Part shown: piece after piece, positions 15,796 to 35,846 of the stretch
How positions within the stretch are numbered: the stretch's first letter is position 1
How the letters are laid out: every line of letters starts with the position of its first letter
Made by a program: the position numbers and the translations under genes
NCBI GenBank assembly: GCA_020881915.1
Contig: JAJFPB010000005.1
Coordinates: 992,001-1,056,000, forward strand
DNA from: Paramyrothecium sp. XJ0827
Taxonomy: Eukaryota > Ascomycota > Sordariomycetes > Hypocreales > Stachybotryaceae
DNA: 64,000 bases
Direction: 5' to 3'
The notes under the pieces: model-generated
Told to the model about the DNA's origin: nothing
Seen by the model: only the letters and a program-made list of their open reading frames with translations
The model's database searches: none

Positions 15796-17187
15796 AGTGC
15801 GAAGTTTTGGATACCTTCTCTTTCATGATGGCAGTACAGTATTACCTTGGATTAAAAATAAAACTCGAAACAACAAAGAAGGCGCTGGCCACCAACTGCC
15901 TGCACGTGCACGCGCAACACCAAAAGCAAAAGAACTGGTGGTGCTACTTTTTGGATAAAACACCAAAAAAAGAAGGCCATCTCAGTTCTCAGAAACCAGA
16001 GGATCTACGAGTGCTGTAACTATACTTGTAAGTATATTGTAAGTATATTGTAAGGATAGGTCTACGAAGGGGTCTACGATTTTCTCCGATAAGGCCTGCA
16101 CCTTGTCGCCCTGGTTCGCTCGTCAGCTAGCAGGGCTGGACTCGACTCCTCGTTGGCTCGGTTACTTTGCACTCTTGCAGGAATCGAACCGTTGCCGGTT
16201 GGTGGGGGGGATTCCTGTTTGGGAGTGCGAAGCAACCGAACCTCGGAGGGAGAACCGAGGTGTGGCCTTGCCAACTGAGCCAGTGCCGTCTGGTCTCTGG
16301 CTCAGCTGGTGATTGTTGACTGACGGTTTGATATTGGGGATTATCAGGCACAGAAGGGATTTTTGGGTGGGTGGGGCCGGCACTGGTGGCAGCTGCGAGG
16401 GCTGCGGGTGGTGCGCGGTGCGCGACGAGTGACTGACGGGTGACGAGCGGCGGGATGAGGTGGGTGGTGATGCGGCTGGTGGTTGTGGCCAACGGGCAGG
16501 GCGGCGGGTCGTTGGGTACGTACCCGACCGCACAACTGTCAAGCTCTGAGCAATGCCAAACCGTGGGCCAAAATGGCTGCCAGGGGTTTGCCAAGGTACC
16601 GTCTTTCACTAAGGGGAAGACAACTCTTTTAATGCAAAACATTGCATTGCTTATTGACAACACGCCAAGGTCAAGCAAACGCGGTTGGAATAGCATTCCA
16701 TGCACTTACCAGAAACGGTCGGGTGCTTCCAGCTGATTGGAAAAGAAAAGGAAAAGGTTCCTGCGGGGGCGGGCGGCGTTGGTCTTTTAAGATTCCTTGT
16801 CTAGCCCTACCGGCAAGACCCACGCCAATCCTGCCCTACGTGGGTGGAGTCGTGATGACAGAAAAGCGTCCAGGGTAGCCCCTCACCCGTGCACCGGCCC
16901 TGCTACAAGTCCGCCGGGCCTAGCTCAAGTGATTCGTAATGGAGCAATCAGTTTCAGGAGAAGTTATCTGTGAGGGGAAAAAAGTGTTTGTGTCTTGGAG
17001 GCAAGGGGAGGCAGTCAAACACGTCTGAATGCAATTGTTGTGTCAGATCCACTTTCATTGTTCTCTCCACACTAAGGTCGCAGTGAATATCTGATACTTG
17101 TTCTTGATTGCTCCTGCAAAGCAACAGAGCGTAGCGCCTCTAGACCGAAACACCTTCACTGCCTTGCACTACTCGTATCCAACCTAA
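15796..17187. other. Intergenic (1.4 kb) with micro-repeat and hairpin
   Basis: No gene seen. A short direct repeat (ttgtaagtata) recurs three times around 16025-16056. A long imperfect hairpin lies at 16159-16238 and is listed separately. Confidence 0.45.
16159..16238. repeat. Long imperfect inverted repeat (hairpin)
   Basis: Arm 16159-16185 pairs with arm 16210-16238 around a loop of about 24 nt. The inner part is perfect (CAGGAATC against GATTCCTG). The outer part, CGGTTACTTTGCACT, matches the reverse complement of AGTGCGAAGCAACCG except for two transitions, both of the C-to-T/G-to-A kind. A tRNA-like B box (GGTTCGATTCC on the minus strand) lies in it and an A-box-like TGGCTCAGTTGG sits near 16285, but no tRNA cloverleaf forms. 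Could be a hairpin RNA, a decayed tRNA or a MITE-like remnant. Confidence 0.6.
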
Positions 17188-33355: not shown

Positions 33356-33870
33356 CGTGGCATTGACTCTGGAAAAAGAGGCCGACGGGGGGTGGGGAGG
33401 AGGTAGAGTAGTACGCTGTGTGGCCGGGTGGCGCTTTTCACGATGTTTTGTGCGCGGGAGGGAGGGCTGCGTCTGTGGTGGTGGTGGTTGACGAAGGCGA
33501 GATCTGCAGATGCCGGCAGCTTCCAAAAGGTACATCTGGCTATGACGTCTAACGTTCTTTGGGCGCCCACCCCACCAGACCAGACCAACCCAGACCAGCC
33601 CAACCCAACCTACCTGTAGGCACTCGACGATACGTACTGCGTAAGGTGCCATAGCGTCGTGGCTAGGGAGACGTGGCTCCCAGAGCTGCCTCGGCTCCGT
33701 TCGCCGCCATCGACACTGACATGATGGTGCACTTTGCAATTGAGACTGCAGCTCTCCTGCTTGCGCGTAAAATTGATTATTCGAACGCGCTGTTATCCAC
33801 AGCAGATGTGGCTGAGCAGCACGACGCCTGCTCTGCTTCGCCACTTTACCTAATCTGACATGCCGCCGCT
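33356..33870. other. Intergenic between the FIT-family gene and the ncRNA array
   Basis: Promoter side of the FIT-family gene. No gene seen. Confidence 0.4.
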
Positions 33871-33875
33871 CTCAT

Positions 33876-33881
33876 TATATA
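33876..33881 (+). promoter_or_regulatory. TATA element of ncRNA unit 1
   Basis: TATATA starting 29 bases before the conserved AGCGAAG at 33905. Confidence 0.55.
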
Positions 33882-33904
33882 CCAAAATAAACACCAGGCT
33901 TCTC

Positions 33905-33970
33905 AGCGAAGTAGCTGAAAACACAAAAACAAGCAGGTTTCCCACGAGTCGCAAGACTCCTTCGCTTTTT
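33905..33970 (+). ncRNA. Putative Pol III ncRNA, tandem unit 1
   Basis: Begins AGCGAAGTAGCTGAAAACAC. The first seven bases pair with CTTCGCT at the 3' end to form a 7-bp terminal stem. Just before it is a perfect hairpin GAGTC-GCAA-GACTC (GNRA loop) at 33946-33959. T5 at 33966-33970 follows. A-box-like TAGCTGAAAAC begins at position 8, as in tRNA. A strong B box (GTTCGAATCC) lies at 33984-33993, outside the short transcript, and a second T6 run at 34017-34022 gives an alternative longer end. No coding potential. Identity of the RNA unknown. Confidence 0.62.
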
Positions 33971-34256
33971 GGACAGGACCGCTGTTCGAATCCGTCCGAG
34001 ACGTCGGCCCGCTTTCTTTTTTGCCATTGCAGCCGTGCTCCTACTTAACAAGACATCTTACTGTGGTGACGGATTGGCATCGCCATTTTTATGTGTCTTG
34101 GAGGTTGCAATTTTGAGATTCTCTGCTCCGTGTTTCTTTCCCACTCCGTAGACCAACAGTATCATTCTGATTGTCTTTCCTCAAGACATGCTCTGGTTAC
34201 GTCTGAGCTTTGAGTCACAACCCAAGGCACCCCTGTTCTCTTGCTGCAGCTACCCC

Positions 34257-34262
34257 TTATAA
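34257..34262 (+). promoter_or_regulatory. TATA element of ncRNA unit 2
   Basis: CCCCTTATAAG context; TTATAA starts exactly 30 bases before the conserved AGCGAAG at 34287. Confidence 0.62.
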
Positions 34263-34286
34263 GGCGGAAAAAGGGTTGATAATGTC

Positions 34287-34376
34287 AGCGAAGTAGCTCA
34301 ATAGCACAAATACTCTGCGTAATGCAGAGAGCTCCGGTAGAGTTCATCCACCCTCCTTCGGGAGACTTCGCTTTTT
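34287..34376 (+). ncRNA. Putative Pol III ncRNA, tandem unit 2
   Basis: Begins AGCGAAGTAGCTCAATAGCA and ends ACTTCGCTTTTT. The terminal 7-bp stem AGCGAAG/CTTCGCT is perfect. A central hairpin CTCTGC-GTAAT-GCAGAG spans 34313-34329 and a 3' hairpin CTCC-TTCG-GGAG (UUCG loop) spans 34353-34364. The A box TAGCTCAATAGC starts at position 8. T5 is at 34372-34376; a downstream B-box-like GTTCGACTTT at 34391-34400 and a second T5 at 34414-34418 follow. The fold resembles a tRNA outline without a T-psi-C loop. Confidence 0.65.
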
Positions 34377-34698
34377 GCCGAAGAGCGTTTGTTCGACTTT
34401 GATCTTGGCCTACTTTTTGATTGCCTGCATCCAGACACCAGTGGCGGTTGGACCTGGATCGCAGAAGATGGATTCTTTTGCCCATCCCCTTGCCTGTTTC
34501 ATCCTGGACTAGATAGAGGTGGTAACGTGTATGTACCAAAACTCTAGGGATCTCGAACTTCAGACCCTTTCATTACTGCACCCAAGTGAAGCTTCGTTCT
34601 GATGAAGCGCGGCATCTGCCTCTCCACGCCTCTGTGTAGACGTCCTGTGGTACGACAAGGGACCCTGCACCTCCCGTGTCACAGCCACTCCAAGCCCC

Positions 34699-34704
34699 TT
34701 ATAA
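34699..34704 (+). promoter_or_regulatory. TATA element of ncRNA unit 3
   Basis: CCCCTTATAAG again; TTATAA starts exactly 30 bases before AGCGAAG at 34729. Confidence 0.62.
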
Positions 34705-34728
34705 GACATAACAAACACGACATTCATC

Positions 34729-34803
34729 AGCGAAGTAGCTCAACAGCACAAACTACGCCTTGACTCGTATTACCTTTGTCTTCTCCGGAAGTCTTCGCTT
34801 TTT
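34729..34803 (+). ncRNA. Putative Pol III ncRNA, tandem unit 3
   Basis: Begins AGCGAAGTAGCTCAACAGCA, almost identical to unit 2 for the first 20 bases, then diverges completely. Terminal stem AGCGAAG/CTTCGCT is perfect; 3' hairpin CTTC-TCCG-GAAG at 34780-34791; T5 at 34799-34803. Downstream B box GGTTCGATTTG at 34816-34826 and second T5 at 34840-34844. A box TAGCTCAACAGC at position 8. Confidence 0.65.
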
Positions 34804-35184
34804 GCCAATGTCGACGGTTCGATTTGAGCAGTACCTTTCTTTTTGTCATGCCTGGGCCATCACAAGTCAACGGCACTATTTCTCTACCAACAGCAGCGGT
34901 TGGATTTTTTAACCATCTTGTTTTTACTTTGCCATTCCCTCACAGAAAATAGAAATCTTAAAGCCATATTGAACTTCATTCTCACCTCCTTGTAAAATCC
35001 AACTTGGCTGACGCTCTCGTGAAGACTTCAGGCTCTCGAGGTAGACGGACACAGCAACCTAGCCCCACATCACAATTTCCTCATTAGGCAACTATCCAGG
35101 CTACCACCATCCACCCGCCTCATCCCTGAGTCATCCGGCAAGCAGATCAAACAGGGCATTCTGCAGTAACACGCAAAACTCCCC

Positions 35185-35190
35185 TTTATC
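35185..35190 (+). promoter_or_regulatory. TATA-like element of ncRNA unit 4
   Basis: CCCCTTTATCA; the TTTATC starts exactly 30 bases before AGCGAAG at 35215, and the four C match units 2 and 3. Confidence 0.5.
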
Positions 35191-35214
35191 ATGCAGGATA
35201 ATTCGTCGATATCC

Positions 35215-35300
35215 TAGCGAAGTAGCTGCAACACGCTCTTTTGAATTAAGAATGTGCGTAAGCACTTTCTTGCTATCTGTCTTCGGACGCTTGGCTTTTT
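35215..35300 (+). ncRNA. Putative Pol III ncRNA, tandem unit 4
   Basis: Begins AGCGAAGTAGCTGCAACACG. The terminal stem pairs AGCGAAG with CTTGGCT (one mismatch). Central hairpin GTGC-GTAA-GCAC at 35254-35265 and 3' hairpin GTC-TTCG-GAC at 35279-35288. T5 at 35296-35300, downstream B-box-like TTCGAACCC at 35316-35324, second T6 at 35337-35342. It is the most divergent unit but keeps all elements in the same order. Confidence 0.6.
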
Positions 35301-35342
35301 GTTGCTGGCCATGTTTTCGAACCCAGCCTCGAACTCTTTTTT

Positions 35343-35846
35343 CTTTCACCGGTGCACTGGTACACAAGAAGCACTCTACTCAAATAGTACCAGAAAGCCT
35401 CAAATCCCCGAACCGTCATTCACATGAGGTCGGCATCCTTGGCCGTAGCTTAAGCACATCAATCATACAGCGTATATGAAAATCTGTTCATTTCTATGTC
35501 GAGGCCTGGTCAGGGCATATCTCAAAGTCCCTTTTCAGCTGTCCCTGGTATCCATCCTGATGGCCACTGAACCCTATACATTCAAGAAGACTGCGAAAAA
35601 TGTGCCTCTGTAAAGCCACTTGCATTTCTGGTATATACACATGAAAGGAAAATACTCAATATGTTCAAGGTGAAACGGTAGGGATCACTGTGTCAGTGCC
35701 GCTGCCGACACGAGTGCCGTGCATCCTATGTCTGTCGGGCCCGGGGCCGCTGAGTAGATTTCAACCACGGCTATTTCTGCCTGGTGATGCTCAGTCTCTG
35801 GCTGCGCCTCCCCCTTCAGACTCTTCGGCTCAGCAGGGCCGCTACC
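35343..35846. other. Intergenic
   Basis: Downstream of the ncRNA array and of the GH55 gene stop. No fifth copy of the array unit and no gene seen. Confidence 0.45.

Follow-up and report, generated by a model that had tools for sequence, protein, structure and literature searches.

What is encoded by four short, similarly built units that lie within 1.4 kb of each other, all on the plus strand, in a fungal genome of 51.77 Mb and 15 contigs? We examined this cluster within a window of 64 kb (C11:992001-1056000), by which we mean the whole stretch of DNA that was analysed. An earlier note on this DNA had read the units as an unrecognised tandem Pol III family with a TATA-like element, an A box, a terminator and a downstream B box; given a box shared with U6, a 3' hairpin and a null result with Rfam, this is still the best reading. 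The cluster is flanked on its left by a gene for a FIT/SCS3 protein (Pfam E 4.5e-78) and on its right by a gene with a pectate lyase/rhamnogalacturonase-like domain (E 2e-102). Among the best 120 of 1138 relatives of the FIT/SCS3 protein the top identity is 81%, the best named relative is a Stachybotrys chartarum protein at 73%, and the named relatives among the matches listed come mostly from Hypocreales.

The units share one order of elements (Table 1). A TATA-like element some 30 bases upstream had been described, and TTAT stands at exactly -30 in 4/4 units. The 5' end AGCGAAGTAGCT, likewise described as shared, is identical over 12 nt in all four. An A box starting at base 8 is also present throughout, with 6, 7, 7 and 5 of 8 positions (units 1-4) matching the consensus TRGYNNARNNGG. 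T5 follows directly behind CTTCGC in three units and behind CTTGGC in unit 4, in agreement with the earlier description. The best B-box match reaches 9, 7, 8 and 7 of 10 positions (units 1-4) against the consensus GGTTCGANTCC, with a gap of 17, 18, 17 and 18 nt from the last C of CTT[CG]GC. This places the B box 12-13 nt past T5 in every unit, a narrower range than the 12-17 nt first proposed. From the start of the B box to the second T run there are 34, 24, 24 and 23 nt, such that the 20-25 nt previously given holds for units 2-4 and is too short for unit 1; from the start of the first T run to that of the second, the distances are 51, 42, 41 and 41 nt. Three of the reported starts (33905, 34287 and 34729) are right, and the fourth is 35216 rather than 35215. 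The A- and B-box scores are modest (5/8 and 7/10 in unit 4). Single elements of this kind are weak: 43 sites in the window match the B box at 8/10 or better, so that only the constancy of its spacing gives the B box any weight.

Table 1. Features of the four units, in positions of the window.
Feature	Position	Strand	Basis or remark
Unit 1 TATA-like element TTATAT, TTAT at -30	33875..33880	+	sequence
Unit 1 predicted RNA, 61 nt + T5	33905..33970	+	7-bp terminal stem
Unit 1 hairpin GAGUC-GCAA-GACUC	33946-33959	+	predicted
Unit 1 downstream B box TGTTCGAATCC	33983..33993	+	9/10
Unit 1 second T run, T6	34017..34022	+	sequence
Unit 2 TATA element CCCCTTATAAG, TTAT at -30	34253..34263	+	sequence
Unit 2 predicted RNA, 85 nt + T5	34287..34376	+	
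Unit 2 hairpin CUCC-UUCG-GGAG	34353-34364	+	predicted
Unit 2 downstream B box TGTTCGACTTT	34390..34400	+	7/10
Unit 2 second T run, T5	34414..34418	+	sequence
Unit 3 TATA element CCCCTTATAAG, TTAT at -30	34695..34705	+	sequence
Unit 3 predicted RNA, 70 nt + T5	34729..34803	+	
Unit 3 hairpin CUUC-UCCG-GAAG	34780-34791	+	predicted
Unit 3 downstream B box GGTTCGATTTG	34816..34826	+	8/10
Unit 3 second T run, T5	34840..34844	+	sequence
Unit 4 TATA-like element CCCCTTTATCA, TTAT at -30	35181..35191	+	sequence
Unit 4 predicted RNA, 80 nt + T5	35216..35300	+	terminal stem with G.G mismatch (CTTGGC)
Unit 4 hairpin UGUC-UUCG-GACG, outer pair U.G	35278-35289	+	predicted
Unit 4 downstream B box TTTTCGAACCC	35314..35324	+	7/10
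Unit 4 second T run, T6	35337..35342	+	sequence

Conservation is confined to these blocks. Anchored on +1 and compared without gaps, the units have a mean identity of 100% over the first 10 bases and 68% over -30 to -21; the 10-base blocks from -150 to -31 are 22-45% identical between units (32-35% for those from -70 to -51). None of the 6 pairs of spacers gives a better alignment than 200 mononucleotide shuffles do. In the stretch from T5 to the second T run, the G behind T5 and TTCGA in the B box are almost all that is kept. The shared blocks imply old tandem copies; if the units are such copies, the rest of their sequence has been randomised almost throughout. Downstream of units 2 and 3, the otherwise random spacers show one small exception: they match over 17 nt (82%), at 34436-34452 and 34888-34904. 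The two stretches are 452 nt apart and may be what is left of a tandem duplication of ~450 bp.

The central sequences had been called unrelated, which is not wholly correct. Units 1-3 have CACAAA in common behind the A box (33922-33927, 34305-34310 and 34747-34752), a stretch that is absent from unit 4 and for which promoter needs do not account.

We compared the cluster with the U6 gene of the same genome. The Rfam U6 model found no match in the whole genome, nor in any of 14 control genomes, and short U6 patterns were therefore used. The U6 core pattern matched at 2 places and its reversed control at 1. One of the 2 places is U6 by context (C8:3357073, locus L014); a further short pattern gave 0 matches. 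Read by eye, positions 1418-1623 of this locus are a likely U6 snRNA gene with two introns. Here cmscan returns two pieces of U6 (RF00026) at 27.2 and 22.7 bits, against a gathering score of 44, which cover exon 2 and the 3' exon. The first piece puts the 5' half of the model on the intron and is therefore support for exon 2, not for the 5' end.

With its 5' end placed by the 5' hairpin and not by mapping, the U6 gene carries CCCCTTATA with TTAT at -30. The same box occupies the same place in units 2 and 3, unit 4 has a variant of it and unit 1 only TTATAT. This shared U6-type box is new here, and its occurrence at the same distance in U6 ties the cluster to Pol III in this genome. In yeast SNR6, too, a TATA box stands at -30 and the B box outside the mature RNA, and there is an A box close to the 5' end. 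The fungal U6 and the units agree in the TATA position and in a B box outside the mature RNA, but the B box, a perfect GGTTCGATTCC, lies in intron 1 of U6 and downstream of the terminator in the units. The units are not U6 themselves: they have no U6 covariance match, and the U6 gene of this genome is the one at L014.

Intron 1 of U6 also contains a T5 run, which suggests that Pol III here does not always stop fully at T5 alone. The T5 of the units may accordingly be a leaky stop, and the real RNA could extend to the second T run.

We then considered the RNAs that would end at the first T run. The predicted terminal helix has 7 bp, formed by A1-U and GCGAAG/CUUCGC. In units 1-3 its pairs 2-7 have probabilities of 0.80-1.00 in both the short and the read-through forms, and the A1-U pair has 0.68-0.75. 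In unit 4, which has the G.G mismatch, the terminal-stem pairs reach 0.20 at most and folding prefers another structure; this unit may be decaying. The end helix is followed by UA and, in units 2 and 3, by a GCU/AGC mini-hairpin. Contiguous helices in the units are at most 8 bp long, and the longest interrupted helix is the middle hairpin of unit 4, with 9 pairs and one mismatch. Whole-RNA folding gives z-scores of -2.4, -3.7, -1.0 and -1.5 for units 1-4, on fragments that differ by ~1 base at their ends from those used for the pair probabilities; units 3 and 4 thus do not stand out by folding energy alone.

All four units have a tetraloop hairpin that ends 0-1 nt before the closing strand CTT[CG]GC, with a stem of 4-5 bp and a UNCG or GNRA loop (GCAA, UUCG, UCCG and UUCG in units 1-4). 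This 3' hairpin is new here and goes beyond the earlier description of the units. The chance of such a hairpin is 0.00055-0.00145 per unit in 20,000 dinucleotide shuffles of each middle, where a stem of at least 4 bp with a UNCG or GNRA loop was required and the loop classes were chosen after the units had been seen. Its pairs were read unit by unit in a script because a MAFFT alignment shifted unit 4 by one base. Among the four loop-proximal positions, the bases vary at three while pairing is kept in units 1-4 (AU/CG/CG/UG, GC/UA/UA/GC and UA/CG/UA/UA), and the fourth pair, CG, is constant. The hairpin is a sign of selection acting on the RNA. In unit 4 its probability falls from 0.73-0.90 in the short form to 0.43-0.52 in the read-through form.

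We scanned both strands of the window for at least 5/6 closing pairs before T5, combined with a TATA-like tetramer around -30, an A box of at least 5/8 and a B box of at least 7/10. The 4 matches are exactly the units. The same scan over 219,824 bases from 22 control loci of this genome gave 0 matches; the thresholds were set after the units were known, and 2 of the 22 loci had been picked for containing the 12-mer. A looser scan (TATA, stem and T5) gave 7 matches in the window (the 4 units, one that overlaps unit 1 and 2 on the opposite strand); in the control loci it gave 3. The 12-mer AGCGAAGTAGCT is not enriched genome-wide, with 11 exact sites versus 32 for the reversed control. Four of the 11 are the units, and the other 7 have no CTT[CG]GC-T5 partner within 160 nt. 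Genome-wide, the pattern GCGAAGTAGCT N40-70 CTTCGCTTTT occurs at 3 sites, which are units 1-3, versus 0 for its reversed control. The earlier note had named a dispersed repeat as the finding that would count against it; the genome-wide searches with the exact 12-mer and the two-ended pattern reveal no such repeat among exact copies. A DNA search of the genome with each unit found only the unit itself, a weak result as units 2 and 3 missed each other.

The 11-mer CCCCTTATAAG occurs at 9 sites in the genome versus 16 for its reversed control. We rejected it as a genome-wide Pol III marker: the 7 sites outside the cluster mark no recognisable genes, with no Rfam match at the gathering score and no tRNA. 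Beyond this genome, a scan with the family pattern gave 4 stretches in bacterial records, where we estimate ~4 by chance, and 0 in viral contigs. The RNA had been described as unrecognised, and a search of the 64 kb window against Rfam release 15 gives no match at or above the gathering score. With E up to 5 allowed, there is a single match over 33700-35500, to a flavivirus stem-loop model (17 bits, E 0.77).

Very probably, then, the cluster is a Pol III gene family of few members that arose by local duplication. The anatomy of the genes, the predicted fold and the conservation by blocks within the cluster come from the DNA itself, and the promoter layout argues strongly for transcription by Pol III. 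The best reading of the predicted folds is that the product would be a structured RNA of 61-85 nt in which the terminal helix is constant and the middle variable. In the mechanism that we propose, the TATA box at -30 would place TFIIIB, and the A box at +8 together with the B box just beyond the terminator would place TFIIIC. Transcription would start at the A of AGCGAAG and stop mainly at the T5 after CUUCGC, the second T run acting as a back-up stop. The ends of the RNA would then close in the 7-bp helix, on whose 3' side the tetraloop hairpin would stack; the middle differs per copy. Such an RNA could be the RNA part of a ribonucleoprotein, in which the constant terminal helix, the 5' motif and the 3' hairpin would form a protein-binding frame and the variable middle would contact a target or cargo. 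This division into frame and cargo is weakly inferred, and we offer it as a tentative possibility.

A variant of the Pol III reading, and compatible with it, is that transcription reads through to the second T run to give RNAs of 116-132 nt. The genes would then be of type 2, their A and B boxes both internal and accompanied by a TATA box, and T5 would be no more than part of the RNA. A second T run is present in 4/4 units, the A and B boxes are 71-96 bp apart, within the range of tRNA genes, and U6 intron 1 has a T5 as well. Against these points, the 5' end has its pairing partner immediately upstream of the first T5, the stem persists in the longer folds of units 1-3, and the sequence between T5 and the second T run is little conserved apart from the G and TTCGA mentioned above. 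We regard read-through as rather unlikely. A milRNA precursor requires a hairpin duplex of ~20 bp, and with helices of at most 8 bp the units were rejected as such precursors. Neurospora, a filamentous ascomycete, is reported to have Pol III milRNA genes that carry TATA-like elements (PMC3547838). It is nonetheless very unlikely that the units are Pol III-transcribed milRNA precursors like milR-1 to milR-4 described there, as they lack a long hairpin (the longest interrupted helix being that of 9 pairs) and are conserved at the ends and not in a duplex.

Decayed tRNA genes, or a tRNA-derived SINE, with kept A and B boxes would explain the A box at +8, as in tRNA, and the 7-bp end helix, UA and GCU/AGC mini-hairpin (units 2 and 3), which resemble the 5' half of a tRNA. 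Decay, however, would not be expected to spare the TATA box, the end helix and the tetraloops while the spacers randomise. The rest of the unit accompanies only 4/11 exact 12-mer sites within 160 nt, all in the cluster; the exact searches of the genome gave no dispersed copy, and the unit searches, weak as they are, found only self. ARAGORN (bacterial setting) finds 0 tRNA in the window. A tRNA identity was rejected, as a tetraloop sits at the place of the T loop and no cloverleaf with T loop and anticodon was found. An origin from decayed tRNA genes or a SINE is, in our judgement, highly improbable. Least credible of all is chance or a functionless local DNA repeat. Four close copies could be recent duplications, and units 2 and 3 do share the short spacer match, but the spacers are otherwise chance-like while the blocks are identical or still pairing, and 0 comparable layouts occur in the 219,824 control bases.

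To our knowledge, few Pol III products of filamentous fungi are described beyond tRNA, 5S, U6, RNase P/MRP and SRP RNA and some milRNAs. Among the matches listed, a literature search gave no such RNA by title or start of abstract, and a text search for the 5' end gave none on a fungal RNA by title. The available parts of two fungal structure screens (PMC5640933, PMC8216456) and of a re-analysis of fungal hairpins (PMC9757828) give no description of such an RNA. Closest in plan are the Class I RNAs of dictyostelids, which have a short stem joining the ends, a conserved motif adjacent to the 5' stem and a variable remainder (PMC7919456). Those of D. discoideum are 42-65 nt long, come from several genes with a shared upstream element and have been shown to be expressed, and the paper reports no evidence for Class I RNAs in any other organism (PMC7919456).

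Units 1-3 have the predicted short end stem, the 5'-stem motif and the variable rest of these RNAs, whereas unit 4 departs from the stem plan, its stem being mismatched and not favoured. Further likenesses to Class I genes are several genes with a shared upstream element, a T run after many of the genes and a similar size. In contrast, the upstream element there is a DUSE at about -60, where the units have TATA at -30, an A box and a downstream B box, with just 32-35% identity among them at -70 to -51; Class I RNAs have a conserved start and a CUGU end, while the units start with AGCG and end with CUUCGC; and the 3' tetraloop hairpin recurs in the units, which belong to a fungus and not an amoeba. 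Expression was shown for Class I, whereas the fungal units are known here from sequence. With the same plan but other sequences and another promoter, the units are an analogue of Class I and not a member. Compared with the Neurospora Pol III milRNAs, the units are likewise small RNA genes of a filamentous ascomycete with TATA-like elements, but have no long hairpin; milR-1 has no predicted A or B box, according to PMC3547838.

Vault and Y RNAs are also small Pol III RNAs whose constant ends pair around a variable centre (for vault RNA, see also PMC8287541), and the three human vault RNA genes are clustered. The B box lies inside vault RNA, unlike that of the units, and the units have no Rfam match. 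If true, four genes that share a constant frame around an exchangeable middle would give fungi an equivalent of the Class I, Y and vault RNAs. Direct testing is feasible because the genes all lie inside a single 1.4-kb block.

A bolder extension, which we consider unlikely, is that the units represent a fungal class of tRNA-top-half-like RNAs, handled by a tRNA protein and carrying a separate regulatory cargo per copy. Stacked on each other, the end helix and the tetraloop hairpin on the 3' side would make a rod of 12 layers, with 7+5 bp in unit 1, 8+4 in unit 2 and 7, an unpaired U.U layer and 4 in unit 3; the rod of unit 4 has 11 layers including G.G. In size this rod would equal the acceptor/T-arm minihelix of tRNA, followed by a counterpart of U8-A9 and a D-arm-like hairpin. 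The constant rod might be taken up by, e.g., RNase P or Z, La or an export factor, and the interchangeable middle would serve as the separate regulatory cargo.

Finally, a perfect B box also occurs elsewhere in the window. On the minus strand, at 16320-16040, GGTTCGATTCC at 16190 is preceded by the tRNA-like GGCTCAGTTGGCAAGGCC and followed by the repeated TTACAATATAC. A genome search of limited sensitivity finds only this element itself, and Rfam gives no match to it at E up to 1. By its sequence, it looks like a relic of a tRNA-derived element.
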